From Ehretia macrophylla (Eukaryota; Streptophyta; Magnoliopsida; Boraginales; Ehretiaceae), in NCBI GenBank assembly GCA_037974665.1, contig CM075773.1, positions 48,438,080-48,502,079 of the forward strand: 64,000 nucleotides of DNA, written 5' to 3'. This document shows positions 12,581 to 47,394 of this stretch, in pieces. Within the stretch, counting starts at the first letter, position 1. Each line of letters begins with the position of its first letter. The position numbers and the translations under genes were made by a program. Under the pieces are notes generated by a model. It saw nothing but the letters and a program-made list of their open reading frames with translations, had not been told where the DNA came from and ran no database searches.

Positions 12581-12694
12581 TCATTCAACTACGGCACCAT
12601 GCCCTGCAATAGCATTCAACAAGTTTGAAGTTTTAATAATATTATACTATTCACCATTTTTATAAGTTCATGAACCTTTTTCATCAAATGTCAC

Positions 12695-12704
12695 CTATAT
12701 AAAC
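12695..12704 (+). promoter_or_regulatory. TATA box of plus-strand ERF
   Basis: CTATATAAAC, 157 bases before the ATG at 12861. It implies transcription start near 12728 and a 5' UTR of about 130 bases, a normal arrangement for an intronless plant ERF. Confidence 0.6.
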
Positions 12705-12860
12705 CCCGTACACCCTGTAACTCAAACTCGTGCTAAATTTCTCTTTTTCTAACTATTTCTTGAACATTTGAATTCAGTTAGTTTGAAGCGAAACAGCCTC
12801 GAACCCAGAAAAGTTATTACATAAAAGTCTTCAGTTTTTGTTGAATTATATTCAGTATTG

Positions 12861-13522
12861 ATGAATACTAAAAGTGATTATGATTTTGATCTTGCTTTTT
12901 TTGAATCAATAAGTCGCTTTTTGGTTTATGATCATTTTGAAACTCCAGCAACAAATGCAAGCCCAATGTTTCCTTCCTTGACTGACAATGAAGGAGAGCT
13001 TCCACTAAACGAGAATGACTCGGAGGAAATGGTGCTTTATGGGGTGTTTGATGACGGTGTTAGTACAGGATGGCTTCCATCGACGACTGCCAACACAACT
13101 GTTCAGGCTGAGCTTCAAACGAGCTCTGAATTCCAGGTGGGGGCGCTAGCTGAGCCGGTGGTAGCAGTGGCGGAGGAAACAACACTGTGCCTCCGACGGG
13201 AAAGCGTTACTGGGGTGTCAGGAGGCGACCGTGGGGAAGGTTCGCGGCGGAGATAAGGGACCCGGTGAAGAAAGGGGCCCGCTTGTGGCTCGGGACTTTT
13301 GAGATGGCCGAGGATGCAGCATTGGCCTATGATCAGGCGGCATTTCGCATTCGCGGATCACGTGTGTTGCTTAATTTTCCGCTTAGGATTAATTCCGGCG
13401 AACCTCAACCAGTTAGGGTTAGGTCAAAGAGGTCATCGGTGTCGCCCGACCGTTCTTCATCCTCCGAGCAGGAGAATGGGTCACTGAAGAGGAGGAGAAA
13501 GAATATAAAAGTAGTGGACTGA
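12861..13522 (+). pseudogene. AP2/ERF transcription factor, group IX type, with frameshift
   Basis: Intronless ERF gene. It starts M-N-T-K-S-D-Y-D-F-D-L-A-F-F-E-S-I, and an acidic motif L-P-L-N-E-N-D-S-E-E-M-V-L-Y-G lies upstream of the DNA-binding domain, both typical of group IX activators. The AP2 domain (13199-13390) has [23 protein letters not shown] and L-N-F-P-L-R-I, followed by E-P-Q-P-V-R-V and a basic K-R-R-R-K tail (possible nuclear signal). Expected role: binding GCC-box promoters in the nucleus. The first frame stops at 13256; the AP2 frame runs from 13154 to 13522. One extra AC at about 13182-13186 explains the shift; without it the product would be 219 residues. Alternative: a sequence error, with the gene intact. 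Family call is very strong; functionality is uncertain. Confidence 0.88.
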
Positions 13523-15837
13523 AGATATAATTATATTTTCTGTATTTCATTTACACGTGACACTGACTCATGTTCAACAGTTTGAATGTACCTTTTACCC
13601 CAAATAAGTGATAGAGCAAAAGCTATTTCATAAGAAAAAAAAAAAAAAAGGTGAGAGAGCAACTTAGGAGTGGAAAAAACATGTGCATTCATGTATTTAT
13701 TCTTGTACACGGTTAATTTTTCGTTGAAATGAAAATTTTGTGTAATTTTAGTCTTAATTTTGGTCTTGTAAGATATTGTTAAACAATTGGTATGCAAATG
13801 ATCTTGTAATCGTAACATTCATTTGATTGGTACCAGTTAGCTGGCTTTTTGGGCTTTCTCAGCCATTATCTACTTGTGTTTTCTTCATTTAGCCATTGGC
13901 TTACTCCTCTTATAGCTATCATCGGCATGCACTCTCATGGTCCCATCCATCATTGGCCTATTTTTGCAAGTGGAGTTAATCTTCCTTGCAACTAACGATC
14001 TTAAATTTTTCACCTGAGGGTCATTGGCCTATTGTCTAGTTATTTTACATGGAGGTGAATATTACATTTATTCTCTCACAATATTATTGATATTAGAGAA
14101 TTTTTCCATATTAAGAGCACTGATTTAATCACAAATTACTATAATTTGTCAGATTTTTGGCAGGTGAAGTTAATTTAAAGTAAATAAAGACAATTATAAC
14201 TTGATGTATCTTGTTTTTGTGCTTCAATAAATCACTTTGCTTTTTTTTTTTTTTAAAGTTTAAAACTAGAATGAAATCTTATTAGCATAATTAAATCTCT
14301 CAACTATTTGAGAGATTCCCGTACCCAAAAAGAATTAAAAAAAAAATCTATCTAAGAATTCGTTATAAATCCCATGACTAACTTTTTCAAAATGGACTTC
14401 TAGGGAAAATCTCATCCATTAAAACCCTCTCCTAAAGTTTCACCAATATAAAACCTACTTACAGTTTTATTTGTGAAAAAAAAAAAACATGTTTTCGGTA
14501 TTCTATTCAAAATTTAGGTGGTCAATCCACCTTTTTGTTTATAGATTAGTCCAAGAATTTATATACTGATTTTGGACTTATCAATTCATATGGAATACTT
14601 GGATTCCTCAATAAAGATAAAAGAAAAACCAATTTCTGAAAGGAGAAAAAAAAACCATTTTTATGGCATACATACAATGAGAGAAATCTAAGCCTTGGTA
14701 AATATATACTATAGTCAATGAGCTTAATAGTTTTATGCCCTAAAACTTACGTTTGTTAAAATCTATTAAATATGTTCTAGAGAATTTTCCTTGAGAAGAC
14801 AAAAACAAAGTTTAAATATAAGCTACAAACATGAATCATATGTATGGTCGCTCCTTGTCCTTGGTGGTTGCTATTATGTATACATTATAAACGGGATATC
14901 TTAAAGCTAAAATTGGGGTGCACTAAAAAATTTATGAAGTTGCACTTGAAAATTTTCAATCACCACCCATTCTTGTCCTCCTTTTTTTAACTTTTTTCTG
15001 ACACAATAAAATCTTTTGCAATTAGCATCGCTAAAATACAAGAAAGCAAATTAAAGAATAATTATGACATTCGAGAACAAATATTGAACCGGGAAGAAAT
15101 TTTTCTTTGAGCTAAATAGCAAGTTGGTATCAGCATATGACAAATATCTATATTTTAAATCCTCTCATAACATTATAATAGTATAAGAGAAATCGAACAA
15201 TATATAATGATAAACTAATTAATATGTTGTAGTTATGATAGAATATACTACTTATGTGAGGGATCCAAATCTAATGTAACTATGTCATCTTCAAGCTTAA
15301 ATCTACGAATACTAACGTTTCCATACGTTCAATGAAAACTTTTTTTTTTTTTGGTCAATCAATGAAACAACTTATTTATCCATTATTTTGACTTTCAAAC
15401 TTAGACCAGTTTGATCCAACAGTGGGTTTTTTTTTGTCTGACCTTTCACCTTCTTTTTTTTTTGTATAACATGATTTTCACATTTCACCTTTTTCAATGG
15501 GAATAGCAAGTTGCTTTGCTAGTAGCATTTCAAATTGACCGTCACCTGCCCAGTTCAATGTGACGTTTTATTTACTTTCTTTGTTTTTGGTTAGAAAAGA
15601 GATTCCTGACAAAAAAAGTTACAAAAGAGATTTGTTAACGAACAAATAATTATTAATTAGACTAACTACTAAGCATTTCCTCTAATGATATACTTCTCGC
15701 TTAGTGTGTGATAAATTCCGAGATCTTGACAAATATAATATCGCTTATATATGATATAATATTAGCCTAGACATCCTTTTAAATAAACAAAATAATAATT
15801 ATTACACTAAAGCTGTAGGCGAATTTGGTGAAGATGC
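13523..15837. other. ERF downstream region, absent from copy 2; no gene seen
   Basis: AT-rich sequence found only in copy 1 of the window. It includes the ERF 3' flank, several poly-A/T runs (13637, 14240, 15340) and scattered short frames without recognisable domains. It lies in the segment (about 12603-16266) that copy 2 lacks. Confidence 0.5.
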
Positions 15838-16241: not shown

Positions 16242-16510
16242 GTAGTCCAAATACAAAAAACTGTACGCCCGACACAAACCCAGAGCACAAAGAACCAAAG
16301 AATCTGTCCAACAAGATATCTCCAAAAGTAGCCATCCAATATAAGGAGAAACCCAAGCCGAAGAGTGAAGATGGTAAGGACCATCTTTAATTCATCAAAC
16401 ATGATTGTATATACATATTCCGGTCAAGCATCCACATCCATTTTTCAAACTCTTCCATTTGCTTATGGTATGTTCTGGATTTGGATTCTCTCACATCATA
16501 TAATATTACG
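16242..16510 (-). other. Possible LINE 3' UTR relic, copy 1
   Basis: Read on the minus strand it contains the string TTGTGCTCTGGGTTTGTGTC, of the kind found in LINE 3' UTRs. About 45 bases (16268-16315) and then 16395 onward match copy 2 at 45042-45195, so this marks the right edge of the copy 1/copy 2 difference. Low certainty for the LINE assignment. Confidence 0.35.
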
Positions 16511-16780
16511 AGTTAAATTTAGAAAAATTGTCATATTTAGTTTTTATTATTTTTCAAAAGTTTCAATTTCGTCCTTATTATTTTCCTAAAGTTTTAAGCT
16601 TGTTCCTATTGTTCAAAATTAGTCAATTTAATCTTTATTATTTTAAAAATTAAAATAAAATTCATCGACTATTGTTTCTAAAAAAAATATCAATTTAGCC
16701 CTATTATTTTTTAAAAAAAATATCAATTTATCCCTATTATTTTTGAAAAAAATATCAATTTAGCCCTATTATTTTTTGAA
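16511..16780. mobile_element. Fold-back element, truncated (left arm only), copy 1
   Basis: Left arm of the fold-back element that is complete in copy 2 (45196-45655). It ends abruptly at 16780, where the sequence jumps to what is position 47395 in copy 2. Three direct repeats of about 34 bases (ATATCAATTTAGCCCTATTA core) occupy 16680-16780; copy 2 has one. Confidence 0.7.
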
Positions 16781-17636
16781 CAAGTTGAAATTAATAACCA
16801 AATAAATGATACTAGTATATCATGAATCTTTTTATTTTATTTTTATTTATGTTTCAAGGGTTTGGAAATAGGCTAAAATGCATCTAGATGAATCCACATT
16901 TTGGTCACATGAAAATTTTAACACACTATCACAACTTAAACAACCCCTTATCCTCAAACAATAAATTTCGAGCACTAAATTTTGTTTAAGAAAATTTGTA
17001 CATAAAGCTGAAAGCAAAGGTAAATTGAACAGCTTACGACGTTATATTGTTTTTTGTCAGTAGTTTATCACGTTAAGAGGTTATTCTTTTGCTACAATAG
17101 AGACCGAAGGCAGAGTTTGAATTTAAAGTTTCGAATTATAACATATTACTATTTGATCAATCCACCTAATTCTTTAGTGTACTTTAAGAGGTTTTTCATT
17201 TGATGCCAATTAAAATAAAAAAAGAGAAACAATAAACCAGTGTGCATGAAGACCATATCCTCCAGGTAGAAATTGGAATATTCACTTGACAAAGTCCTCA
17301 ATACAACTCATCTAAGGGGAGCTCGTTAGTGCATATGTTGCAAGGTTTTTTTTTGTTTCCATTTTGGATAAGTGAGAATTCTCATGAAAAGTTTTTTAGG
17401 TGTCACATCAATGGCATTAAATCTCAAAATATATAATTTTTACTAGAGAAAACATGATCTAAATTAATCAAACACAAGGTCTATCTAGATTTGATATAGT
17501 TTGTTGCTTATTATCTTTCTTAATATTGGATAACGAGCTTATGAGATTGTGATTCACAATTAATAATGCTTTTCATAAATCCTATAACTGCTAGGTTTGT
17601 GATCATCATTGTGAAATTCTATTTCACATTAGTTCT
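16781..17636. other. Spacer, copy 1; no gene seen
   Basis: Shared with 47395-48255 in copy 2. AT-rich, no conserved frame, no recognised element. Confidence 0.5.
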
Positions 17637-18010
17637 TGATATGGGTGTAGACCCAACTCGGAGCATCATTAAGCATGAGCCGACCTGTACCTGACCCGCA
17701 AGCTAGCGCCTGACCTCAGCATTAAATGCTAAATGGGATATAAAGGTTTTAACCATTGGGTAATAATTTTATCTAGGGGGCAAGAGCGCGGGGCAGACAT
17801 GAACAGTGTCACGCCAAATTAAACATTTAATGTTGTCCGTCTTAATAGCTAGTATAAATATCCTATACAATGCTCACATTCAATTGTAACGAAACTCTCA
17901 TTAATTGCTCCTTATCTTCTGCAATTATCTGAGCTCGTACGTACTAACTTACTCTCACGCCGTAGGGGAAGCACGAGTCATAATTCCCGCGGTTCCTTCC
18001 TTTCTTTTGT
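17637..18010 (+). mobile_element. Probable Ty3/gypsy LTR remnant, copy 1
   Basis: Less AT-rich than its surroundings, with a promoter-like AGTATAAATA box (17851-17860) followed by TACAATGCTCACATTCAATTG, CTCATTAATTGCTCC and TACTAACTTACTCTCACG, a layout resembling the U3-R-U5 of gypsy LTRs. It begins TGATATGGG. I find no partner LTR, primer site or TSD, so it may be a solo or truncated LTR. Ends are approximate. Confidence 0.45.
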
Positions 18011-18553
18011 AAATATTCACTGAACTCATGCTGAAGCAGATTTCAACCTTTACCAATTTTATTAAATGATCGTATTCATTTTATAATAACTTAAATTCTC
18101 TATTAGTGTCAGCACAAATTCAAATATTTTAATTTAGTTAGTTAGACCTCACGTGCCAGAATAGTAGTTAAACCTAAGTCATACATGTGGTTTCAAAACA
18201 TGCTAATAGGCAGAAGTGTGCACTTTCTCCACCAGGTTGGTGGTCATGGACTGTGACGGGGAGATATTGTTTGGCCTTATGAATTATAAGCTAGTTAATT
18301 AGATTTAATGAGTTAGTTATAGTAATTAAATTTAAATCTTTACAATTAGCTTTCATTCTTGAAATTCTTATTACAAGAGTAAATGTGATTTTAGAAAAGA
18401 AAGAGTTTTAGTATTTTAGAAAAATGAAAAAGGGAAAGGCAATTTTCAATTGATTTATAAAATTTTGAGCTATTCATTTAATACTAATTAATTTTATGAT
18501 TAAGCTTCACGTTATAACTATCCAAAGTACACCAATGTATTGATCAACTTACC

Positions 18554-18725
18554 TTTTTTTTTTTGTCAATAAAATGCAGAAATTTCATTACGAACAACAG
18601 AAAGTTACATGAAGTTGGTCAATTCCAGTTGGCTCCAAATTTGAATTAAGCAAGTTACATAGTAGCGATGGTGGATTTTGGAGCCAATCATCATTAAGTT
18701 ATAAATAATTATCTTCAGTGGGACA
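18554..18725 (-). mobile_element. Short LINE 3' fragment, copy 1
   Basis: A T-run at 18554-18564, followed on the plus strand by GTCAATAAAATGCAGAAATT, reads on the minus strand as a 3' UTR ending in poly(A), typical of severely truncated LINEs. Same site in copy 2 (49173-49345). Confidence 0.5.
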
Positions 18726-18910
18726 AAAAATTACCCTAACCGTGGGCGCAACAGAGAGTCAACGACAGCAAGATCTGATGGTATTAATGATATAGTTGTG
18801 ATAAGATAATTTTGTATAGTTAACACGTATTAGATCTTATTCATAATTTTTTGAGTATATTGATTTTTTTTCTCGTCAAGGGGTACATACATTGAACATT
18901 TTGTCTAAAA

Positions 18911-19310
18911 AGGTAAATTTCACACTTAGTCCCTATTATCTATACTTTTTTTCAAGTTGGTCTTTAATATTTTAAAAAAATCATATTAGTCCCTAATATT
19001 TACAAAGTGATTCAAAATAGTCCTTATTATTCAAAACTAGCCAATTTAGTCCATATTATTTTCCATAAAATTTAATTTACTCTCCAAATAAGGGTCATGC
19101 ATAAGGATTGAATTCAATTTTTTTAGAAAATAATAAGGACTAATTTGAATTTTTTGAAAAACAATAAGGACCAAATTGGTTAAGTTTAAACAATATAAAC
19201 TATTTTGAATAATTTTTGTAAATATTAAGAACCACTATTAATTTTTTAAAACACTAAGAACTACATTGAAAAAACATATAAACAATAAGTATTAAGTGTG
19301 AAATTTACCC
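18911..19310. mobile_element. Fold-back MITE, copy 1
   Basis: The left end (A)GGTAAATTTCACACTTAG and the inverse of the right end GGGTAAATTTCACACTTAA are nearly identical. The arms contain alternating ATTAGTCCCTAATATTTAC-type motifs and are inverted over their length. No convincing TSD. Conserved at 49533-49927 in copy 2. Confidence 0.65.
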
Positions 19311-20870
19311 TTTCCTGGAATCTAATTAAAATGTTAAATCGTTGGCCTAGCTTCCTAGATTTGCTGTATTTGGCGTTTTGCGGCTGCTGGGTGACATTGA
19401 TAATAATTTATAAATTCTTGAGTCAATGTTTAATGCTGAAAATGACTAACAGTATTATAAATATTTCTAGTACGAAGACAGAAATATAATTAATGACAAA
19501 AAAATAAAAACACAGAAATATAATATCCTCTCAGGGTTTTATATATGTTGTATCCCACATGATTTAGCCAGACAAATTATTTGAATTTGATACTTACCTG
19601 ATCATTCAGAATTATATCAAGTGGCACAAAATATATAGTTAGATTAATGATGGTATAAATTCTTCAAACAAACTGGATTAAGTTTCAAGTCTTAAAATAA
19701 ACTTGTATATAAATATATATATTTATATGTATACACAAACACACAATAAAAAGTTATGAGCACGTAGATTGATAATGGTCCCTCAACCGACCAACACTAA
19801 CCAGTTATTACCAATAAATATTAGATAAAGTAGACATTTAATAGTTGAGAGATTATATAACTACTAATATGAAAATATATTGTGTAATAATTGAAAGATA
19901 AATTAAATCGCCAATGGAACAGATACTAAAAAGTTGAATATGTTCGACTTGATAATGAAGGCTGCGGAGTCCAATGAAAATTTTAAATTCCAAATTTGGT
20001 TAATTGTCGACATCCACAAGCATTGATGTTATTTTTTTTTATTACTATTTTTATTCAAGGGAGTTTTAAGCTGTACAACATATATATTAAAGAATATCAT
20101 TCACGAGAATTGATATCGTAATTTCTCATACTCATAACGAATGGCACACCACTATACCAAAGGCCTGTTGGTGAGCTAGGTTGGCCTTTGGCATTATTAG
20201 GCTGCTAGATCAGCAGTATTAGGATACATTTAGGGAACATTAAACTTCCATTGAAGAAAAACTCTTATTGGTTGGAATTTTTAGCTATCTTGATAGAAAT
20301 TTGATATCCTTTTTTTCATCTAAGCAAATCGTTTTTTTCTCACAAGAGATCGTGATGTCTTTTTACAGGATCGTGGGTTGCATTCCGAAACAAGCGACAA
20401 ACTTAATAGGTGTGATAGGTTTAACATGCGTTTAGCAAGCTTTTAATTAACACAAAATTATAAACACAAAAGCCATTTGCTTGTCGTTAAGAGAAAAAGG
20501 TTCTTAATGACAACTGATATGTTGAAACAGGGTGGTGGGCGGGACATGTGGAACATCCACTTAAAAGTTACTTTTACTTCTTTTTCCCTAACATATGGAA
20601 TTGAAATGTTTGATTTATTGGTTCATATCATATTTACAATCAACGTTCACTCTAGCTTGAGGTGGAATCAATAGCGTCTGATTTCAAACTTATTTGTTAC
20701 TTCATTCAATTTTAACTTTTTTCCTTGTAAATTTTTAGATGTCTGAAACTCGATTAATATTTGAAGCGTAAGCCCTTTATTTCTCTTTTTTAGTTTTCTT
20801 GCTCTTGGCCACAAGCAAGAGGCAAAAGCTTGAAAGTTGTTAATCTCATTAAAAAGGTGTAATATATCAC
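19311..20870. other. Spacer, copy 1; no gene seen
   Basis: Matches 49928-51490 in copy 2. An (AT)-rich run occurs near 19715, and a small inverted pair AGGCC..GGCCT near 20160-20195. No frame shows recognisable domains. Confidence 0.5.
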
Positions 20871-22240
20871 TTTTTTTTTTGGCTAAATCAGAGAAATGAA
20901 TATCATTAAAAATGAACTAGTAGAAAAGGGGGTGAACCGACCAAATACAAAGAACTGCTGAAAATGAAAGTGAAGCTCGCAAACCGACAAACAAAGGCAA
21001 GCAATCTCAAGACACAGAAAAAATCACATTTCGAAACTCAATAATTAGAAAAACTATCTAAGTTAAGGACAAATGAACTCTATTGGCGAAATGTCTATTA
21101 ATGCTAGAGTTGTTGTAGTTTCGTTTCGCATGAACTCTTGCAAAGATATCAACTCGAATCTTCTCGATAATCTGCTCTCTAATGTTAAACTCATTTCGAA
21201 AGATTCATCCGTTTCTCTCGATCCAAACATGGTAGACAGTAACACAAAACAGGAGCCCAAACATGGAGCTTAATTTTGAGATCCCTATTGCCTGCTAGTG
21301 AACGTGCAAACGTAAGAATTGAATCAAATGAATAAAAATAGAGATAAAAAAGAAGTAAATTCAAACATTCCTTCCAGATTCATTTAGTGAAACTGCATTC
21401 AAAGAAGATGTGATATCTAGTCTCACAACTGAGGTAACAAAAAGTGCAGCTGGCTCTATCTACAACTCTCCATGTGAGAAGACAGTATCTAGTATTCAAG
21501 TGATTATGACTAGCAAACCAGGAAATGAAGCTTTTGTTTAGGGATATTATGCGGGAACCAAACTAATCTGTACCACTCTACAGGGTTGCCTCTCTTCCTA
21601 ATATTATCCAAAGTTTTGCCGAAAGAGAACAAACCATTATGAGAGAACTTCCATTCAAAACAGTCATTCTGATCATCCCTCGTGAACAAGTTATGGTTGC
21701 TGGGATTCAGATTAACCAAATCAGGCTGGTAGATTGGCTAAACCTGTTGCCTGTCTTCGACGATATCCGCGACTTTGCTATCAAGATATGGATAGAGAAC
21801 TTTGACATTATGGAGGAAAAAAATGATACCAGTAGGGTGCTAATTATCATGCCAAAAAAAAAGTATTCCTGTCATTCCCAATTCTATGCACAATAAATGC
21901 ATGAGCAAGAGGTCTGAGGTTGAGTATCTTCATTCAAGATCAACAGGCATCACTTGGGACTTTCATTGTCCTGAAACATTTAATCTTGATATAATTGGTT
22001 CAAACCGATGAGCTCCAACTTGTGTCTCTGAAGGAGTAAAACCTCTAGAGAAGCTTTAAAAAAGCAAGTTTGCTAATGTGAACAAGCTTTCTAATTCCAA
22101 GACTGCCTTCCTCAATTGGTTTACAAACACAATCCCAAGCAATTTTAGGCCCCGAGTCACGCCAAAGAAAAGCCATAAATTGGAGATAAATAGTTTCATT
22201 CTTTTACCTTATCCAAAATTTGACCATTCACTTTCTATTG
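20871..22240 (-). pseudogene. LINE ORF2 C-terminus, 5'-truncated, copy 1
   Basis: Minus-strand relic. From high to low coordinate it shows F-L-W-R-D-S-G..K-I-A-W-D and C-K-P-I-E-E-G-S-L-G-I (end of the reverse transcriptase region), then F-E-W-K-F-S-H-N-G-L-F-S and L-V-W-F-P-H-N-I-P-K of the zf-RVT domain (21510-21719), then a W/R-x-E-R/T-N tail near 21230. The 3' UTR ends in a 10-base T run at 20871-20880, the poly(A) tail seen in reverse. Multiple frameshifts and stops. Shared with copy 2, so the insertion predates the duplication. Confidence 0.82.
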
Positions 22241-23096
22241 AATAGAGGTAATCATGAAATCCGTCCATTTAATAGCAACATCGTTGGTTTGTTCACATTG
22301 CATTTTGGTACGCCGTAAATTATTTCATTACAATCAAACTAACATATACAAACAAGTATGCAAGGCATAACCAATATTTACAAACCTCATTAGTAGTTCA
22401 CATGGTGCAATGTCAATTAAAAGGCATGATACATTAATGTTTTTAAGTAGAAAGACAATTTGATCATAATAATATGAATAAGCAAATATTCTCTAAAGTG
22501 ACACATTAGAATACTAACCTGAGCCGTATTAGAATTTGTTCAATCGCGAAGTCCTGAAACCAATAAATATTAAACTAATTAGTAAACAAAGAAAACTAAA
22601 GTTGAAAACAAAATTCAAAACAAAAATGCGAAATATATAAATAACGAATAAAGGAAAAAGATTAAAAAATAAAACTGAAAAATAAAAAATTGAACAATTC
22701 CCCCAAAAAAAAACGAAAAAAAAACTTACATCTACTTATTCAAAAAATAGGTATATATGCATATATATATATATATATATATATATGTATAAAAATAAAA
22801 AAACTGAAAAAGAAACAAAACAAAAACCCCCAAAAAAAATAAAATAAAATAAACTTACATCTAACAACAATAAATAGGTATATATGCATATATATACTTA
22901 TAATTATATATATATATATTTATTTATATATTTATATATATATATATAAAGAAAAATAAAACTAAAAAAAAAATTAACTAAAACCCCAAACATAAAAAAA
23001 AAACGAAAATACAAAAAAAAACTTCTACATCTACATATATTTATACATCTATATATACATATACATATACAAACATATACATATATATCAACCTTA
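22241..23096. other. AT-rich spacer, copy 1; no gene seen
   Basis: Contains (AT)n and ATAC runs at 22755-22790 and 22905-22950 and A-rich tracts. The motif AATAGGTATATATGCATATA occurs twice (about 22747 and 22873). Copy 2 has an inverted duplication at this place. Confidence 0.5.
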
Positions 23097-23260
23097 ATGT
23101 GGGTTTGGAAAATGGAGGGGTTGGGGGTAGAGAAAGAAATTTTAGAATTAAGAGGAGGGTTTGAGGGAGAGGGGGTGGGGGGTAGGGTATTACGGAGTGA
23201 GGGGTGGTATTTTAGTGGGAGGGGAGGGAAGGGAAGGGAAGGGGATGGGGGTTTGAAATT
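23097..23260 (+). repeat. G-rich, quadruplex-capable tract, copy 1
   Basis: Purine strand with many G runs of three or more (GGGAGAGGGGGTGGGGGGTA and GGGAGGGGAGGGAAGGG-type segments). It can form G-quadruplexes in principle. Partner tract at about 53805-53965. It abuts the palindrome pair. Confidence 0.65.
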
Positions 23261-23276
23261 TTTTAAAGTAAAATTA

Positions 23277-23407
23277 GCTGAGGGCACGATCTGTGCCCTT
23301 AGCCAATTTAAATGTGGCCACATGAGACGGACCCAATGGGTCGGTCTTATCCGTCACATTTAAGAGACGAACCCATTGGCTGAGGGCACAGGTCGTGCCC
23401 TCAGCCA
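23277..23407. repeat. Palindrome pair, GCTGAGGGCAC family, copy 1
   Basis: Two near-perfect palindromes, GCTGAGGGCACG..GTGCCCTTAGC (23277-23302) and GGCTGAGGGCAC..GTGCCCTCAGCC (23379-23407). They flank a stretch in which AATTTAAATGTGG..GAGACGGACCCAATGGG is matched by an inverted copy, so the whole ~130 bases can fold as a hairpin. Confidence 0.7.
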
Positions 23408-23829
23408 TTTGTTCCTTTTTATTTTTTTTGGGTCAACATTTGTTCTTAAAACACTCCCCCCCCCCCCCCCCCCCCCAAACCTTTTTACCAATTTTTTTTT
23501 AAAAAATTCATGAGTAATTTTTTTTTATTTGGGGATTTTTTATAAAAAAATTTATGGGAGAATTAATTTATTTACTATTTAATTTATAATTTATTTACAA
23601 GTTTAGGGTAAATTATTAATAATTGGCTAATTATTAATTATTATTTTTAACTTAAATTCAAAATTAAAACATTTTATTAAGTTGTAAAAATAATTTTTAA
23701 TTTAATTCTTAAGTATCATTATTAGATTATTTACTTATTTAAAATAAATAAATTATTAATTTAATTATTAAATGGCAAGATTAATTAAATAACTACGTAA
23801 CATTATATATTTAACCATGTTGTCTCATT
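23408..23829. other. AT-rich interior, probable part of CACTA remnant, copy 1
   Basis: Starts with a C-run of about 20 (23456-23476), then very AT-rich sequence without frames. Its position between the palindromes and the CACTA subterminal repeats suggests transposon interior. Confidence 0.4.
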
Positions 23830-24366
23830 TTTGTCTTTTTTTGAAGATGAATTGGAGACGATATTCATATTCCGTCTCCAAATTATGACGACGGACCATA
23901 ATTTTTGCCACCAATTTAGTGACGGACCATCTATTTCTTCACCAAACTTGGTGACGAACAAGCTAATCCGTTACCAAGGTGGTGACGGATAGAAATTTCC
24001 GTCACCATTTTGGTGACGAACAATCATTTATGTCACCATCACCAAAATGGTGACGGACCATCATTTCCGTTACCATTTTGGTGACGGACCAGCTTGTTCG
24101 TCACCAAAAAGGTGACAGATCAGCTTGTCCATCACCAAATTGGTGATGGACTAGCTGATCGGTCATGGCTTGGTGACGATTTGGGGACGGTATTTGCTGT
24201 TCGTCACCAAATCGTCTCCATTGGGAGACGGCCATTGGGAGATGGTTTGGAGACGATGTACTTAAGTCGTCTCCAAATTGTCACCATTCATGTATCAAAA
24301 TTTTCATCGCTTTTTTGGCGACAAAAAGGAGACAGACCGTCACCTTAAATAATTTTTCTTGTAGTG
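23830..24366. mobile_element. CACTA (En/Spm) transposon terminus with subterminal repeats, copy 1
   Basis: Ends TTTTTCTTGTAGTG at 24366, the reverse complement of the canonical CACTACAAGAAAA terminus. The preceding ~500 bases hold about a dozen direct and inverted copies of GGTGACGGA / TCCGTCACC, with a variant set TTGGAGACG / CGTCTCCAA, matching the transposase-binding subterminal arrays of CACTA elements. No partner CACTA end and no transposase gene are seen, so this is a truncated or internally deleted element. Confidence 0.82.
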
Positions 24367-24402
24367 GATGGAAAAATCAAAGGCTACAAGGATAAGAATT
24401 CA

Positions 24403-25240
24403 GAAATATAAGAAACGGAAACAACTTGAGCAAAATGTTCCTCGACTCTAAATCGGAAGGGATTTAATTCACAAAGTAGAGAAAAAACTGTAAATACTCT
24501 TATAATACTAAAATAATTTATGAGAAAATGAAAATTTTGAGCTAGGCATATCTAAGCCTAAGATCATCAATTTATGAGATTGTCATGGAAAACTATCATC
24601 ATCGTGTAGAAGAGATGCATTATGTTTAATAGCTCAAGAAGAATCTTCCAGAGAGAAGATGATATTGCATAATTAACACAACAAATTAGTAAAAGTTATT
24701 GGACAGACTTTGTCGTGTGAAAAAATTAATTTATTATTTAAACTTTTTGAATCAAGAAAATTGTTAATCTTCTAAAGGACGTTGTTTTTATAAATTTTTA
24801 AAATTTGAAAAAGATATATTTGCAGCATAAAGCTACATTAACTTTAAAATTTGCGATGTTGCAACTTAAACACAACATAGCCAACTACTATATTACTTTG
24901 GGAAAGTTGTCGTTGACCCTCTGACAAATCAATGATTGTGGGGCTTATTTTTCTTGGAAATAAGTTATGGTTGATATGTAACTATTTAAACTCAAATATT
25001 GAGAATTGAAGTCTTCAACACAAAAAGAAAGGCAACAAATGAATCATCATTACCCATTAAGAATGGGATAAATTTGATTAAGTATAAGATGAATTCAAGT
25101 ACAAGATAAAAAGTAGACAATGTCAAAATATCTCGATATACATTTTTCCGTATTATTTTATTAGTAGACAATGTCAAATGACTCTAACACACGTTTTCAC
25201 ATATCGTTTTACCTTATTCTCTATATTGTATATGTTTTAA
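24403..25240. repeat. Block A, copy 2a
   Basis: Same block as 1-700 and, more distantly, the ERF upstream region at 11741. It starts 36 bases after the CACTA end and defines the start of the second tandem unit. Confidence 0.75.
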
Positions 25241-31324: not shown

Positions 31325-31738
31325 TGAAGAATTTAACACAGAATATGGATCTTCATAAACCGAATAAAATACTAACCTCGTAGTATGCGGAAGAGTCTGC
31401 AGGAATTAACCACGTTCGTTCCACCGTTAAACAGCCGCGAATCGAAGTCCAAAATACATATTCAATCTTGGACTATATTGCCACAACTTAAATGCTGATT
31501 TGATTTTGATGTCTATGCACTATAGACATAGTAGGAGAGATTAAGAGAGAGAGTAGAGAAGATGAGAAGAAGACTCATTGTCTTCTTTTCTTGTATCTGA
31601 TGTCTAAGAAAAAAGAACGTCTCTTTTTTCTTAGATATCAGAAGTTGTGGGAAGTTGACTAACTTCCCATAATTTCTATACCCATAAATGGGTTGGGTTA
31701 GGTCAACCCACATTGGGCGACCCGTCCCAAATCCAACA
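31325..31738 (-). repeat. Copia 3' LTR
   Basis: Starts TGAAGAATTTAACACAG and ends CCAACA on the plus strand. It contains a small palindrome TCTAAGAAAAAAGA..TCTTTTTTCTTAGA at about 31600-31640. By eye about twenty differences from the other LTR, so the insertion is not brand new. Confidence 0.93.
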
Positions 31739-35900: not shown

Positions 35901-38009
35901 ATATACGTCTGGCCTTCTTGGCCTCACAGTCAGCTTATCCTTTCTTTTTATCATTGGAGTCATTGCCCCTTGTGCTTGGATCCTCATGACCCTTGTTTAT
36001 TGGACTTAGCTACATAAGCTTGACCAATGGCCTAGATGGCTAAGAGGTGTTACCTACAATCTCCAGTTGACGTTTTATGTTTGGAACGTCTTAACATTCC
36101 TATTGTACGTCATGTTGACAATAATGTGCACTCAACTAGATGGAAAGGATAATATGACAACTTGCACTAGTTGTTCATTAGTGAGAATGTGGCCAACTGC
36201 CTTCAGTTCTCTAATTATGTTCGACATCTCGAGAATGCTACCTCTCAGTAGCATTGGGACGCTTCTAGCATCTGTCGAACTTGATTATAAGCTAACTTAG
36301 CTTAGAAATAGAAATTTCACTGAACTTCTCTTTCAAGCTTTCAAAATCCCCACATCAGTAGGTCTTACTTCGTAATAAGTAATGAGGCAATATGCATAAT
36401 GCTCCGCAATGTGATGCAAGCATTAGTATTTTTCCAACATGATAGGCTACTATCTCTTATGTAGAGTGGTGTTCCACCCTAATGGTTCACCACAACATAA
36501 CTCAGTTTTTTAAGCACCTATTTGTTCCTCAAGGATATTCTGAACTATATGATGCCATGTTCGGCAATCATCACCGTTCTTTTTTCCTTTGGTTGAGGGC
36601 AAGGATGATATTTTGGCTATTATTAGTAATAACCACAACATAGACATAGTTTGGATGTTTGATACTAGCACATTTAGATGTTTAATTCTACTTGAACAAA
36701 TATTTAAATGTAATAAAGTGACATAAGATATAGTACCAACACATTGTAGTACAACCTGCCAAATGCTATATTCAAATGTCACAATTATCACAATTTAATC
36801 CTATTCGAGTAGAAACATTAGTTCCGTATATGAATTACATAAATTCACATGGATGGGAACTAATAGTTCTAGATTAAAATCACACCAATCCCAAACTTAG
36901 AACTCTCACTCAGATAAATGATTAATAAACTAATTATTAATATAATAACATATGCAGTAGAAGATTATAATAAAAGAATGATGATAAATACAAATATTAT
37001 CATGAGATGAACATGAAAAAATATTTAACATATAAATAACTAATAATGTTAGAGATAATTAAGCACTCTTCAATGTTCTCTATCCATTCATAACTCAGTT
37101 CGGTCTACAAGAATTAACACATTCAATTCTCTTTACATATGTAGACGATGATTACTAGGGACATAGAAGCTATCTCAAACTTATTGAGATTCAAAAGGCA
37201 CATTTTGGTTCTACATGTTAAGAGAAATAAGGGTGCGGTCTGACATTATGCATGAAACCACATATGACTATCACATGCTTATCAAATTATCCCATCATAT
37301 AATTATAAGAATAAGAAAATTTAAGGGATAATCATTTTGGGCCCACAACAATGTGTGTTCATATGGTCAGTAGTGTTAAGAGTATTTCTCGCTGGTTGTT
37401 TAACTCACACAATCCTCAAATGACCACTAAAGTCATCAGGAAAATAAACAACTTTAGTACATAATGATCCAATCAATTAATTTCAAAATTAATAGTGCAC
37501 ATAGCAACTATTAATATTGTACACAACAAGTTGTATGATGAAATGACATAAATTTCATACTATGAAATGAAATTACAAAAATTTCATGTAACTTGTTACA
37601 AAGATTCCAACGTAATTACACAAATTTCTGAATTTAAATGAAATTACAAAAATTTCATGCCCCTAATTGTAAATATTACAAGAAAATTACACAAATTTTA
37701 GGCATTTATATAAAATTGCAAAAATTTCATACCTATATTGTAATAATTATAATTGAATCACAAAGAAATTTGGGTAAGTAAATGAAATCACTCATGATTT
37801 CATTTCTAAATTAAAATTAATTTAAATTATATACTTGCTCTGCGAGAAATAGAAGCCTAAAACACAATTATCACAAAGATAATGACCCTAATTGAGAACA
37901 TGGAGGTCAAAAATGATATTATCACAGAGATAATAGGCCAAAAGAAAAACATGAGGTTAAAAAAAAAACTAAATTACCACTAAGGTAATGGGCTAGATAA
38001 AAAATAATA

Positions 38010-38245
38010 CATAGTTATGAGGTCAAACTGTAAATAATATAAAGTTTTTGGGGTCAAATCGTAAATAACATAAAGTTATAAGGTCAAATCATAAATAATA
38101 CAAAGTTATGGGATCAATCCGTAAATAATATAAAGTTATGGGGCAAAACCATAAATAACACAAAGTTATGGGGTCAAACCATAAATAACACAAAGATATG
38201 AGATCAAAACGTAAATAATACAAAGTTATAGGGTCATTTATAAAA
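38010..38245. repeat. Minisatellite in copia leader, ~34-base unit
   Basis: About seven units based on ACAAAGTTATGGGGTCAAAC followed by CATAAATAA, with drift. Confined to the leader of the copia element. Confidence 0.75.
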
Positions 38246-38324
38246 ATATCACAAAGATGTGGGCCAAAAAAAAATTAATAATAATAATACAACGTATTAA
38301 TAAATTTTTTTTTTTTTAAAATGC

Positions 38325-38480
38325 CAAGCCGAGCCGAGCCAAGCCAAAACTAAGCCGAGCCGAGCTATAAAGCCGAGCCGTTAAGTAAGCCACCAAGCCG
38401 AGTCGTTGGTCGAGCCACTAAGCCGAGCCATCAAGCCGAGCCGGAGCCAACTGAGCAAGCCTCCAAGTCGAGCCGAACCG
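38325..38480. repeat. AAGCCGAGCC array in copia leader
   Basis: Irregular tandem AAGCCGAGCC/GAGCCAAGCC units, strikingly GC-rich against the AT-rich element. Immediately 3' is a poly-T run. Confidence 0.75.
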
Positions 38481-39316
38481 CCATATCACAAGCCAAGCCA
38501 AGTCACATTTGAGAGCTAAGAATTAAAAACAAATTTTAATTCTGTTTCTCTTTTTTTTTTTTTTAATAAATAAAATAAAAAAAGTTTATATGGCACATGG
38601 CCACGTGGCCCATCTTAATTGAGCCACGTGGCCCACTACTTGATGTTCAGACGTGTGTGTTCAATCACGTCTGACACAAGTTGCAATGACCCCATTTTGT
38701 TTTCCTTTTAAAAAAAAAAAAAAATCTCAGCCACAAAAAAAAAATGCGCGGCCACGTGGCATCCGACGATTGGGCCACGTGGCCCCTATGTCCAAACCCA
38801 TATTCAGCCAATGTTTCATGTTTTTCGTCGCGCACACACTACACCAAGAACACGCACTAGTCCAATTTTTTTTTCAGATTTTCACGAAAAACTTCCAAAA
38901 ATCAGATCTCATGCATTTTAAGCCCAAATTTAGCGAATTACATGTCTACAGAAAGCTTTCAACGAGCCTGTTCTAATAGTACCAAATACACAATTTTTGG
39001 AACATGATACAGACATGAAAAAAGCCAAAACAATGACGAAAAAACGCAAAAAAAAATGTTTTAATCAGTTTGACAATCAAACTTTAAAAATTCATAATAA
39101 ATTCATTACTTAACGAAAAATTACGAAATTTGCTCTATTAGAATCCTTGCAATGAGCACTTTCTACCAGTACCAAAAATACACATACTTATGATACTTTA
39201 CAGAAACGTAAATTAACAATTATTACGTTAAAAATTGCTCAAAAACATGCATATACACATATATACTGCAGAGATCAAATATCTACGGAGAACCAACAAT
39301 TTGGCTCTGATACTAA

Positions 39317-39731
39317 TGAAGAATTTAACACAGAATACGGATCTTCATAAACCGAATAGAATACTAACCTCGTAGTATGCGGAAGAATCTGCAGGAATTA
39401 ACCACGTTCGTTCCACCGTTAAACAGCCGCGAATCGAAGTCCAAAATACATATTCGATATTGGACTATATTGCCACAACTTAAATGTCGATTTGATTTTG
39501 ATGTCTATGCACTATAGACATAGTAAGAGAGATTGAGAGAGAGAGTAGAGAAGATGAGAAGAAGATCATTGTCTTCTTTTCTTGTATCTGATATCTAAGA
39601 AAAAAAATAACGTCTCTTTTTTCTTAGATATCAAAAGTTGTGGGAAGTTGAATAACTTCCCATAATTTTCATACCCATAAATGGATCGGGTCAGGTGAAC
39701 CCACATTGGGCGACCCGTCCCAAATCCAACA
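39317..39731 (-). repeat. Copia 5' LTR
   Basis: Partner of 31325-31738. Its inner edge at 39317 is directly followed, on the minus strand, by the primer-binding site. Confidence 0.93.
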
Positions 39732-39736
39732 AATAT

Positions 39737-40615: not shown

Positions 40616-40685
40616 CAGAGGGCAGACTTGGCGAGGGGACCTGGGGAGCCTGGGTCCCCCCAACCACCAACCAAGAAAAAAAAAT

Positions 40686-41859: not shown

Positions 41860-41901
41860 ATGGGTAAACATCGTAAGGCAGACACTAGTAAGTGGCCAAG
41901 G
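41860..41901 (+). other. Exon-like start inside hAT, copy 2
   Basis: M-G-K-H-R-K-A-D-T-S-K-W-P-R then AG/GTAAGT. Identical peptide to copy 3 at 63774. Confidence 0.35.
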
Positions 41902-42314: not shown

Positions 42315-44017
42315 CCGGAAAAAAAATATATATATTACCCTATAATTGAATCAGTAATCTGTCATGTTCATGTTTAGAATTCTGACTTGTAAAGCAAGTT
42401 TAAAAATTAACTTTTTATCAAATTTATTAATTAAAAATAATTAATTTAAATTATTATTTATATATAATATTAATTTATAAACAACTCTCTATCACGTATG
42501 CTAAAATATATGTTAAATCAGACAACATATAGTATTCCTATGTCACCCAGGCAAAAAAAAAATTGAGTTAAAACCCAATGGAAACGTTCTTGCTCTGCCA
42601 AATAATTTTATGCAGTCTCTCATTAATTATTGTAAGAAAATGCTAATCTTTTTTCCCCCATAAAATGACCAAAACATGCTAAAAAAAATGTATGCTTGGA
42701 ATAATACATCTAGCATTTTTAATGGGCGTTGTTGGATATCATAAACCTTTTTCCTTTTTCTGACCACTACTAACAACTTTCTATGATATGAACGAATTTT
42801 CAAAGAAGAGTTATAAGATTAATGAATAATAAAAAAGTCAAAGTTTGACCAACAACCGAAGTACATATTGATTTTCCCTTCCAACTGATAAAGAAGCAAG
42901 CCACAACGTTGTCGGGGAATAGGGTCTAACTATTCGAGATATGTAAGCAAATGGTTAGTCGTTTTAAATGGTTGAAATTTTTAAATCAAAACAAAGTAAA
43001 TCAAGAGTAATTTTATTTGTTTGTAAATTTATTTGAAAGATTCGATATATTTTATACTGACTGTCAACTACTTAACGTAACCTTCCTCTTTTATCCGAGT
43101 TTGGAACCAACAGTGCCAAGGAAGGACTCCTAACACAGGTGGAGTTGGCTGCAATTTTTAAACATTATTTTTTAAAAATAAAATTATAATTTATATGAAA
43201 TTATAAACGCACCCCACCAACAATCTTATTGGATGTGCGAAAAAGAATGTACGATCTTTATCCCATTTCGCCATCCTTTGCCACACTTTCTCTTCTTTCT
43301 CCTCTTCTCATACGTATCCTCTCTTCTCTCACTGTCAACGTCATCGACCCCTCACCGTTCTTCTTACATCTCTCGTTGATGAAAAGATAATATTGGCCAT
43401 TTTGCACTAATTCTCTATGCTTTTTCTTGCCATTTGCCATCTTTGGAGCCAAATATAAGTATCCATACTTTAACATTTTCATACACATGATAGCACCATA
43501 AGAAGTCATTTTAAACGTACGTATATAATTAATTATGAAGAATTTTCCTTAAGCAAATAATATGAGAAATCACATCCTAATATGGCACCTTAGTAAGTCT
43601 ATAATAAAAGTAAGCCTCTCAGGCTTTCCTTAAATATCTCTCTAAACGAAAAAGAGATAAGTAAAATGTGATTCAAAATTAAATCAATTGTTCCAAAAGA
43701 GACATTAAAGTTTTGACCCAAAAAAAAAAAAAAGAGACATTAAAGTAGACATGATAGGCAATCAATTGGATTTCTGACCTACCGCATCATGTTGTTGAAC
43801 CAATGTATCTGTTTTGTTTCGACTATTGTAAGCAAAGGCTTAGGCTCACGTGGAAGGTTAACTTACTTAGATTCCTTTTTAATAAACAGAATATTCTTAA
43901 CAGTCCTTTAAACTTACACGAGAATTTACACCATAGAACACGTTTGCACCATAAAACACATAATACCACCAAAGTATCGCCCACTTAGTGTACGTGATTC
44001 TATTGATAGAAATATAA
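42315..44017. other. Spacer upstream of block A'', copy 2; no gene seen
   Basis: Matches 10031-11740 of copy 1, with a short deletion near 43786. Minus-strand frames (for example 43258-43509) have no known domain and no protein-level conservation beyond DNA identity. Confidence 0.45.
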
Positions 44018-44825
44018 GAAATATAAGAAACGGCAACAACTTAAGCAAAATGTTCATCGTCTCTAAATCGGAAGGGATTTAATTCACAAAGTAGAGAAAA
44101 AACTGTAAATACTTTTATAATACTAAAATAATTTAAGAGAAAATGAAAATTTTGAGCTAGGAATATCTTAGCTTAAGATCATAAATGTATGAGATTATCA
44201 TGGAAAACTATCATCATCGTGTAGAAGAGATGCATTATGTTTAATTGCTCAAGAAGTTAACACAACAAATTAGTAAAAGTTATTGGACAGACTTTGTCGT
44301 GTGAAAAAAATGTTAACTCTCATCATTAATTTATTATTTAAACTTTTTGAATCAAGCAAATTGTTAATCTTCTAAATGATGATGTTTTTATAAATTTTTA
44401 AAATTTCAAAAAGATATATTTGCGTCATAAAGCTACATTAACTTTAAAATTTACACGTTGCAACTTCAACACAAAATAGCCAACTATTATATTACTTTGG
44501 GAAAGTTGTTGTTGACCCTCTGACAAATCAATGAATGTGAGACTTATTTTTCTTGGAAATAAGTTATGGTTGAAATGTAACTTTAAACTCAAATATTGAG
44601 AATTGAAGTCTTCAACACAAAAAGAAAGGGAGCAAATCAATCATCATTACCCATTAAGCATGGGATGAATATGAGTAAGTATAAGATGAATTCAAGTACA
44701 AGATAAAAAGTAAACAATCAAACTATCCCGACATTAGTTTTTTCGTATCATTTTGTCAGTAAACAATATCAAATGACTCTGACACATGCTTATTCTCTAT
44801 ACTTATTTGTTATTTAATATCATTC
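44018..44825. repeat. Block A'', copy 2b (orphan ERF upstream region)
   Basis: Orthologous to the region directly upstream of the plus-strand ERF in copy 1, ending at CATTCAACCACGGCA (copy 1: CATTCAACTACGGCA). The ERF itself does not follow; about 200 bases of unrelated sequence do. Confidence 0.75.
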
Positions 44826-44837
44826 AACCACGGCATC

Positions 44838-45195
44838 ATTTTGTTTTTTTGTCATTTTACATTACACTGGCACATCATACTTTCATCACTTTTTTTATCA
44901 TTTCCTATTTTTGACGTCAAGCACAATTTTTCCGTGAAAGGGTAAAGTTGAATAGCTAGAAGAACAGAAAGGATAACATTTGCTAGGCTTGGCTAAAATT
45001 TTCTGCAACAAACTGTAAGCAAGACCATTTGGTACAAACCCCGACACAAACCCAGAGCACAAAGAACCAAACAATCTGTCCAGCAAACATGATTGGATAT
45101 ACATATTCCGGTCAAGCATTCACATCCATTTTTCAACTCTTCCATTTGCTTATGGTATGTTATGGATTTGGATTCTCTCACATCATATAATATTA
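44838..45195. other. Replacement sequence where the plus-strand ERF is missing
   Basis: About 200 bases (44838-45040) without match in copy 1, then sequence colinear with 16268 and, after a gap, 16395 onward. Read on the minus strand the first part resembles a LINE tail. It replaces 3.66 kb of copy 1 that includes the ERF. Confidence 0.55.
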
Positions 45196-45655
45196 CGAGT
45201 TAAATTTAGAAAAATTGCCATTTTTAGTTTTTATTGTTTTTCAAAAATTTCAATTTCATCCTTATTATTTTTCTAAAGTTTTAAGCTTGTTCCTATTGTT
45301 CAAAATTAGTCAATTTAATCTTTATTATTTTTAAAAAAAAAATAAAATTCATCCACTATTGTTTCTAAAAAAAATATCAATTTAGCTCTATTATTTTTTG
45401 AAAAATAATAAAGACTAAATTGACTAATTTTGAACATTATCAAGGAATTTGAAACTTTAGAAAAATAATAGTGACAAAACTGAAACTTTTTAGAAATAAT
45501 TGAGACGAAATTAAAAATTTTGAAAAAATAATGGGGATGAAATTAAAACTTTTGGTAAAATAATAAGGATGAAATTAAAAATAAATAAATAAAGAAATTT
45601 AAATTTTTTGAAAATAATAAGTACTAAATATGTTATTTTTTCTTAAATTTAATAT
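45196..45655. mobile_element. Fold-back element, complete, copy 2
   Basis: Left arm (45196-45400) rich in ATTTAG/CTTATTATTTT motifs, right arm (45405-45655) its inverse (AAATAATAAGGATGAAATT). Copy 1 has only the left arm. Non-coding. Confidence 0.7.
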
Positions 45656-45952
45656 AGTAAATTATTTATTTATTTTATAATAAAATCTTTAAACATATTT
45701 TATAATCCAGCATAGATCTCCGAAAGCGACCCACGAAAGCAAACAAAACAGAATCTAACGCTCGCAATTCATATCACCATCAGTTTATGAGATCCCGAAG
45801 GCGAGGAGATAACGGAAGATAGTCAAACATCCCATCTAAATTCTGATCCCAAGCCGTACTCCAACTTGACGGCGTTAACGGCCATTCGATTATTTTCACA
45901 TTTCTCAATTTTCTCTTTTTTCATTGGAGTAGCAGTACTCACCTCAACCACC
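45656..45952 (-). other. 3' flank of minus-strand ERF with the displaced C-terminal frame
   Basis: Minus-strand codons from about 45960 down to a stop at 45823-45825 look like the original ERF C-terminus: an acidic E-N-E-V-V-E-V stretch followed by basic M-K-K-E-K-I-E-K. They are out of frame with the current ORF because of a 10-bp duplication at 45963-45982. Confidence 0.55.
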
Positions 45953-46735
45953 TCATTCTCCCCGTCTCTCCGCGTCTCTCCGCCGCTTTCTCCGACGATC
46001 ACCGTACATGGCGGCGTTTGATATATCAGCCATCTCCTTATCCTCCCCAATCTCCAACGGAAAATTCAGAATTGCTTGGCGGCCACGCATCCTAAACGCA
46101 GCTCTGTCGTACGCTTTCGCTGCCTCCACCGCAGTGTCGAACGTCCCAAGCCAAACCCTATGCCCCTGGCGCTTCGGGTCACGTATCTCCGCCGCGTACT
46201 TCCCCCACTGCCGATGCCTCACGCCTCTGTAGTGCTCCTGCTGCTTCCGCTCTTCCTCATGAACCACCACCGAGTTCGATCGAGTCGAGTCGGTGGCGGC
46301 CATGGTTTTGCACTGAGTCGACTCGCCGAACTCAATCCACTCGACCTTCTTTGCTCTCGGCGTCGTAAGATCAATGACTTCGGGCTCCGAAATCGTGCGA
46401 GCGCTCTCACGCTTTTGCGCGACATTTATTGGCTGCGAGCTCTGACTTTGGTTAAAGTCCAATAAATCGGAAATACAACTGAAGATTTGATTGTTAGCCT
46501 CGCTCAATGTGATAGAAGTCGTGTCTTGCGATGACGATTGTGACTTTGAACTCGAAGCGTCATAATTTGATATAAAATTACTATCGAAGTTGCTAACGCT
46601 CCAACATTGTCCCACATTGGAAAAATAGGAATAACTCTGTCCAAGGTCGGAGGAGTATGAATCTTCCTGAGAGATTTCACCAAGGAGATGATTTCTAATT
46701 TGCTCTAACACAAACATTTCATCAAAGGAATCCAT
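45953..46735 (-). CDS. AP2/ERF transcription factor, group IX type, C-terminally truncated
   Basis: Intronless, 260 codons from the ATG at 46735. The N-terminal half is acidic and Ser/Gln-rich with an I-S-D-L-L-D-F segment, a likely activation region. The AP2 domain is at about residues 168-227: [44 protein letters not shown]. The very conserved R-P-W is R-Q-W here. A basic K-R-R-R-D run follows. Expected role: nuclear GCC-box-binding regulator. Two adjacent copies of CGTCTCTCCG (45963-45982, plus strand) shift the frame just before the stop; with one copy the frame would continue to 45823, giving about 300 residues. Present only in copy 2. The gene may be functional without its tail. Confidence 0.88.
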
Positions 46736-46873
46736 GATAAATAATGTATCGAAATTTAAAAAGAAAAATATTTGATCAAGTAAAGAATTCGAGTGAAACT
46801 AGATTTTGTTTACAGTTTGAAATAGTACGAAAAATGAGAGCTTTGGAAAGTTGGACAATAAGAGTGTGGAAAA

Positions 46874-46887
46874 GGATATATATAAAG
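46874..46887 (-). promoter_or_regulatory. TATA box of minus-strand ERF
   Basis: CTTTATATATATCC on the minus strand, about 140 bases upstream of the ATG, a plausible position with a 5' UTR near 110 bases. Confidence 0.55.
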
Positions 46888-47394
46888 CGAGGGAGAGAAA
46901 TGATTTGTCTTATGATTTGTTCATGAAGACTAGATACTCCATACGTGTTTCGACAGGGTTGTTGCCGATCCTGTTGTTTCGAAGAGTTCGTTAAATGTAA
47001 TAAGTTCCTAGTTAGGAAGTGTGTTTTGATACAGTTTCAGATCATTTCATATCATTATAACGTTATAATATTATAATTAATAGATAATATTTGAATTTTT
47101 TAACAATAGGAGAGATCTAATAGTAATTATATGTTTATGTATGGATCCAAGACATGTTTAACATAGATCACTAATTAAAATTAGAAATACATAAATATTT
47201 AATTATTTTGATTCCTTGACATGACTGTCTTCAAGGGTTCGATGAATGGTTAAGAAAGAAAGTCAATGATCATTATAAAGCTTTCTAGACGGTTTCATAG
47301 AACTAAGGCTCTGAAAGATTGATATAATACTTCTATTGGTATTTATTCACAATTTTCTATTTGTGAATGAAGAATCTCAGTTGTAGAAATGGAA
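46888..47394. other. ERF upstream region missing from copy 1
   Basis: Remainder of the ~2-kb segment (45403-47394) that copy 1 lacks. No second gene. Probably contains the promoter of the minus-strand ERF. Confidence 0.5.

Follow-up and report, generated by a model that had tools for sequence, protein, structure and literature searches.

Do two neighbouring tandem copies, each with a single ERF gene on opposite strands, record a reciprocal gene loss? The question is raised by a 64,000-nucleotide stretch of Ehretia macrophylla contig CM075773.1 (C10: 48438080-48502079, here called the window), in which a sequence-only reading had described a plus-strand ERF in copy 1, a minus-strand ERF in copy 2, and complementary deletions from an ancestral unit with both. 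Coordinates follow window numbering, negative to the left, such that a C10 position equals the window coordinate + 48438079. Self-BLAST of the window aligned 12015-12600 with 44255-44839 (97% identity), 16393-16722 with 45081-45410 (95%), and 16778-22785 with 47392-53394 (95% over 6 kb), and since the identity is 95% over kilobases, chance is no concern for the match between the copies. The same comparison confirmed the two tandem copies and their complementary ERF content, copy 1 with the plus and without the minus gene and copy 2 the opposite, and the previously given borders of the missing segments are correct to a few bases. Copy 2 additionally lacks the ∼16316-16392 of copy 1, beyond the plus-ERF block, and a third unit, overlooked earlier, begins inside the window at 55116.

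We mapped the blocks of the window on 324 kb of joined sequence (the window, 200 kb leftward and 60 kb rightward) and found seven consecutive ERF-bearing units, U-2, U-1, U0, U1, U2, U3, and U4, where U1 and U2 are copies 1 and 2 (Table 1). Both gene bodies occur in U3; U-1 has a minus gene and, of the plus gene, only what is left at the 3' end (the last quarter of the coding region); U-2 and U1 have the plus gene only, and U0, U2, and U4 the minus gene only. These head-to-tail units, with shared and private inactivating changes, form a tandem array with birth-and-death evolution. A unit with both ERFs had been predicted among the neighbours, and U3, where both are broken, together with the remnant-bearing U-1, supports a putative two-ERF ancestral unit. 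We consider it highly probable that the locus arose by recent tandem amplification, followed by piecemeal decay, of an old ERF dyad with a subgroup IXb gene on the minus strand and a subgroup IXa gene on the plus strand. The two-copy pattern in the window is two decay states side by side, part of ordinary gene-family decay. Further left, in a stretch designated U-3, flank L and its relative L' are fused with no ERF half in between, which fits a crossover between direct repeats and could also be the original state; an additional minus copy (95%) is located at C10 48595557, right of the stretch read.

The junctions of the deletions show how the two copies came to differ. The plus-deletion junction is identical base for base in U0, U2, and U4; the sequence left of it is kept in U-2 and that right of it in U1 and U3, where it adjoins a plus gene, and polarising the plus loss of copy 2 as a deletion is supported. 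A small separate deletion just upstream of the plus gene is common to U1 and U3, in which U2 44840-∼45036 is absent. The minus deletion of U1 joins TTTTTTGAA to GAACAAG near 16778, with GAA common to both ends, within an imperfect ∼260-bp palindrome; it begins inside the palindrome and removes most of the right arm. Because the palindrome is complete in U2 but only partly kept in U1, U1 lost its minus gene by deletion and had not lacked it from the start. In U-1, U0, U3, and U4, as in U2, the M block runs directly into the right arm, relatives of which occur on many chromosomes. Among the units read, the minus-only deletion was found in U1 alone, and the minus loss of U-2 is a larger, different deletion. 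The proposed complementary deletion is therefore correct in that both losses in the window are deletions, but they are not a reciprocal pair: the plus deletion of copy 2 is shared with U0 and U4, so the losses in copies 1 and 2 are separate events that belong to different lineages. A single reciprocal event was rejected because the junctions differ and one of them is common to three units.

A plausible history would start from a repeat that combined two genes, one of AtERF1 type (IXa) on the plus strand and one of AtERF5/6 type (IXb) on the minus strand. The units would have multiplied through unequal crossing-over, which the direct L/L' repeats perhaps helped. One deletion would have removed the plus gene in a common ancestor of U0, U2, and U4, a separate deletion starting in the palindrome the minus gene of U1, and a larger one the minus gene of U-2, and a 5' deletion would have truncated the plus gene of U-1. 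Insertions of long terminal repeat (LTR) elements would have disrupted both ERFs of U3, along with the minus ERF of U0, and recombination between the two inverted elements of U3 would have flipped the intervening DNA.

Table 1. Units of the ERF array and features of the window (window numbering; limits of U1 and U2 from block mapping)
Feature	Coordinates	Strand	Remarks
Unit U-2	-53.2k to -44.6k		Plus block, then deletion removing M, minus gene and R1
Unit U-1	-44.6k to -22.8k		Plus block from position 754 (754-2291), then M, complete minus block
Unit U0	-22.8k to -0.2k		Plus gene deleted; minus gene split by 1.69-kb element
Unit U1 (copy 1)	-139 to 24400		1-24400 in the window, true start ∼-139; frameshifted plus gene; minus gene deleted
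Unit U2 (copy 2)	24402-55114		Plus gene deleted; minus gene present
Unit U3	55116-100058		Left part (55116-64000) in the window, end ∼100058; both ERFs present, both broken, beyond the window (66608-92400)
Unit U4	from 100060		Plus gene deleted; minus gene present, 99.6% to U2
Flank L of U1	11532-12600	+	Equals 43785-44839 in U2
L', 0.8-kb copy related to L	24402-25193 and 55116-55915		Opens U2 and U3
Plus-ERF block	12603-∼16266	+	In U1; deleted from U2, same junction in U0 and U4
Putative IXa-type (AtERF1-like) ERF of U1	12861-13522	+	Start codon and AP2 domain out of frame
Segment preceding plus gene, then deletion scar and start of shared right flank	44840-45080	+	In U2
Shared spacer M of U1	16393-16722	+	95% to U2 45081-45410
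Imperfect palindrome, ∼260 bp	45239-45496		In U2; 79%
Minus-ERF block	∼45403/45411-47391	-	In U2; deleted from U1
Putative IXb-like ERF of U2	45953-46735	-	260 aa with AP2 domain
Right flank R1-R4 of U1	16778-24400		First 6 kb 95% to U2 47392-53394
LTR-type insertion, 8.4 kb	31325-39731		In U2; ∼421-bp terminal direct repeats (94%), TG...CA ends, 5-bp target-site duplication AATAT

The decay is most elaborate in U3, where two 9.79-kb elements with TG...CA ends, mutually inverted and ∼93% alike, lie one in each ERF coding region. Plus-block 1-330 (66608-66937) is followed by the first element (66938-76729), then by inverted minus-block 637-1, M, and plus-block 3788-326 (76730-81260), then by the second, inverted element (81261-91051), minus-block 633-1981 (91052-92400), and R1. 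The 5-bp stretches in which the block segments overlap, 326-330 and 633-637, are target-site duplications (TSDs), ATGAT and CTCCC, each split between both elements, and swapped duplications of this kind are a signature of recombination between two elements. We infer that two insertions of opposite orientation, one per ERF, probably occurred separately, followed by recombination between the elements. Domain search covered the first element, whose open frames match retrotransposon gag, reverse transcriptase with RNase H, and an integrase zinc-binding domain, with the integrase core scoring just under the cut-off. The presence of both genes in U3 is independent of the orientation of the inversion. 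The 1.69-kb element of U0 is bounded by 229-bp terminal repeats that are 99.6% alike, and its 5-bp duplication is AGATC.

The genes themselves are mostly damaged. The plus-strand ERF described in copy 1 is present but is not an intact gene, being frameshifted before the AP2 domain: the open reading frame at 12861-13256 and the AP2 frame at 13154-13522 differ in frame because copy 1 has 2 more bases near 13186-13189 than U-2, U3, and an older paralog. Among the four array copies with plus coding DNA (U-2, U-1, U1, and U3), only U-2 is open from the start through AP2, and U3 has an additional stop ahead of the domain. Against the AP2 domain model PF00847 (cut-off 33.3), the plus gene of U-2 scored 53.3 bits, the plus fragment of U1 50.1, and the minus gene of U2 49.5.

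All five array minus copies read (U-1, U0, U2, U3, and U4) carry one extra base before the C-terminal tail, which puts the tail out of frame; most simply, this frameshift arose before the units multiplied. U2 and U4 additionally have a 10-bp duplication in common, which ends the protein at 260 aa, and 11 bp are deleted from the AP2 region of U0. Two older minus paralogs lie in the left flank; the one at -141k has an open frame of 361 aa and the one at -91k of 331 aa, both with the tail EWPLTPSSW...LLSPLSPHP. We take an LSPLSPHP-type C-terminal tail to be a defining feature of subgroup IXb. It is kept in both older paralogs, in a gene at 4812k of contig C1, and in one at 3067k of contig C6, and does not show in the stretch of a second C6 gene at 3086k. 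In ERF6, MPK3/6 phosphorylate Ser266 and Ser269 within the C-terminal part (PMC7672596); the tail lost from the array copies would, by analogy, correspond to this part. The N-terminus and AP2 domain are still open in the minus copies of U-1, U2, and U4, and the ratio of nonsynonymous to synonymous divergence was 0.20-0.75 over six array pairs (few changes) and 0.31 between the two older paralogs, such that there may be some constraint on the short minus proteins. That the array yields tail-less, DNA-binding ERFs, and that its amplification was kept because such proteins compete for GCC boxes with IXb ERFs of full length, is a speculative and unlikely extension. Within the AP2 domain (U2 46082-46234), U2 and U0 read RHRQWGK, where U-1, U4, and other aligned ERFs have PWG.

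To which subgroups do the two genes belong, and how old is their association? Our scan of the genome (1.58 Gb, 20 contigs) scored 150 AP2 matches of 220 candidates, of which 14 lie in C10 48.297-48.634 Mb, and three pairs on C1, C6, and C17 were chosen from this list as outgroup candidates. The pairs C1 4784k(-)/4812k(+) and C6 3037k(-)/3067k(+) each consist of one IXa-like and one IXb-like gene, divergent and 28-30 kb apart, and C6 has the second minus-type gene at 3086k. An ERF tree of 19 rows was computed with groups named beforehand, the AtERF1 domain being the only named IXa row and no IXb row being named; four of the 15 fetched AP2 loci (L003, L005, L006, and L008) gave no protein under the motif filter and are absent from it. 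The plus-type group (five rows; support 92/99) comprises the plus gene of U-2, an older plus paralog, C1 4784k, C6 3037k, and AtERF1. The minus-type group (seven rows; support 92/92) includes C1 4812k, C6 3067k, and C6 3086k and stands apart from IXa. On this sequence grouping, the plus gene is assigned to ERF subgroup IXa, AtERF1 type. The best PDB match alone does not decide the subgroup, because AtERF1 is on top for both the plus gene (125 bits) and the minus gene (101 bits). Between the minus gene of U2 and C1 4812k, BLAST gave a short match only, and 255 columns at 40% without composition correction. We assume the IXb label of the minus gene from the dyad context and from presumed AtERF5/6 features. 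Subgroup IXb includes ERF5 and ERF6 (PMC7350745).

The same divergent order as in these outgroup pairs, minus(-) then plus(+), is found on C10 as 106644/117892 at U4 and, by coordinates, also as 48595557/48606714. Since older plus-type genes lie at its right end and further on, and two older minus-type genes to the left, the array sits at the border of two older groups. The older plus-type ERFs, 77-79% identical to the array plus gene, are at C10 48555917, 48577575, 48606714, 48621355, and 48633081. Two Arabidopsis pairs, presumably ERF2/ERF5 and ERF1/ERF6, are comparable. As AT5G47220/AT5G47230 and AT4G17500/AT4G17490 they are tandem dyads matched by a dyad in strawberry (mrna10841/mrna10845), likewise two adjacent group 9 ERFs of different type, for which a common origin was inferred and the pair judged ancestral to both species (PMC6752658). 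The array pair thus looks like an old IXa-IXb ERF dyad. The Arabidopsis and strawberry pairs are two-gene tandem repeats (PMC6752658), whereas there are seven tandem units here, none with an intact pair.

Segment trees, in which a one-row segment was skipped, the split L of U0 was left out, and distances for A3 in U2 and R3 in U-1 were unused because of inserted stretches, conflict with each other: R2-R3 puts U1 with U-2 and groups U0, U2, and U3, whereas L puts U1 with U2. Each unit is therefore a mosaic, and the relation of copies 1 and 2 is not that of simple sisters. The minus blocks of U2 (45411-47391) and U4 (106644-108624; C10 48544723-48546703) are 99.6% alike, their minus genes being 0.4% apart, yet their R1 flanks are 8% apart, a contrast that points to gene conversion or to a crossover that took place recently inside the array. 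Such conflicting trees are what recombining tandem units should give.

Several observations weigh against amplification and decay of an ancestral dyad. No intact ERF pair was found in any of the seven units, the two-ERF ancestor is reconstructed within a single genome, and no single duplication order was obtained for the units. Both group supports in the ERF tree include a value of 92, under the program's starring level of 95, and the C17 pair (23053k, 23084k) falls in neither tree group and is not a IXa-IXb dyad. The U3 inversion, lying between 9.8-kb inverted repeats, could be an orientation error of the assembly. The four LTRs of the U3 elements differ by Kimura two-parameter (K2P) distances of 0.068-0.096 in all six pairings, mostly by transitions, and this 7-10% exceeds the 2-4% between the U3 ERF blocks and those of other units; as the excess lies in transitions, the comparison gives no date for insertion or duplication. 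Transversion levels are alike (0.7-1.7% in the LTRs vs. 0.35-1.7% in unit comparisons), so the elements and the array may be of similar age.

Could each unit have carried one ERF originally, with the second gained later by insertion? Six of the seven units have at most one gene present over more than half its coding length, as such a history would leave them, but U3 has both genes, U-1 has a minus gene and a plus remnant, U1 retains part of the cut palindrome, plus-bearing units still have the sequence on either side of the plus deletion, the C1 and C6 pairs carry both gene types, and no transposon ends or TSDs were seen at the block borders inspected; a gain by insertion was rejected and is highly improbable. 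Selection for one ERF per unit, that is, a true reciprocal loss by subfunctionalisation between neighbours, is very unlikely. It draws on four apparently separate deletions, each sparing the partner gene, and on a co-occurrence test over the seven units (classes set by us, the plus remnant of U-1 scored absent), in which both gene bodies coincide in one unit where 2.14 are expected. The probability of this is P = 0.14, and for open frames, which coincide in none of the units (0.43 expected), P = 0.57, so that one ERF per unit beyond chance was rejected; because deletions are shared between units, there are fewer independent loss events than unit counts. Moreover, in U1 a frameshift and in U0 an LTR insertion have broken the very gene that was spared, and the tail is lost in all five minus copies read. 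There is no need for a special reciprocal process, and seven units leave room for a weak one.

An assembly artefact, through misjoined haplotypes or collapsed repeats, would be conceivable given that ∼95% tandem repeats and inverted 9.8-kb elements are difficult to assemble. Yet the units are mostly 2-10% apart by segment, with insertions and junctions of their own (as judged from the assembly alone), and the 324 kb contain zero N, and we regard an artefact as scarcely credible. A working cluster of metabolic regulators like ORCA, NIC2, or GAME9 is quite unlikely. The genes are clustered and the plus gene is IXa-like, and a role in jasmonate-induced specialised metabolism had been suggested on the strength of such clusters; the sequence gives this no support. 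The named clusters belong to clade II of IXa, of which AtERF13 is the sole Arabidopsis member (PMC6528166), whereas the plus gene joins AtERF1 in a tree without a clade II reference, the minus copies are IXb-like, and damage affects the majority of the array copies read. Most probably the array consists of general stress ERF copies in decay, with older open-frame relatives next to it.

Known clusters resemble this amplified and decayed dyad in part. The ORCA, NIC2 (ERF189), and JRE4/GAME9 clusters are also tandem group IX ERFs, for which unequal crossing-over is thought to be the origin, but they consist of clade II IXa genes with metabolic roles (PMC7295393, PMC6528166), in contrast to the AtERF1-like and IXb-like, mostly broken genes found here. 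The grapevine VviERF6L clade is a similar expansion of ERF6-like genes, perhaps in tandem, with some members devoid of the MAPK-site motif; it differs in having 18 members of ERF6-like type, and the available portion of its description mentions no paired IXa gene or retroelement inversion (PMC7350745). Our literature search for birth-and-death evolution in ERF clusters found no relevant paper. The array is a well-preserved natural series of a transcription-factor pair multiplied and then dismantled. It includes one deletion common to several units and another private to one, a frameshift, insertions of LTR elements that differ in age, and an inversion in which the TSDs are swapped, the last accompanying the breakage of both ERFs of U3. 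In such clusters, ERF counts from domain matches overstate the number of working regulators.

Other clusters of AP2 matches in the genome are located at C13 81.5-81.85 Mb, C4 16.27-16.61 Mb, and C3 11.7-12.1 Mb. The LTR-type element of U2 has a clean empty site at the matching place in U1, and no open frame of more than 160 aa is listed within it. Pfam search of three small open reading frames of the units (1098-1472, 3336-3818, and 21567-21896) gave no family match. A 124-aa minus-strand frame in U3 (60247-60621) matches the GRF zinc-ribbon family (PF06839) and is perhaps a transposon or gene remnant.

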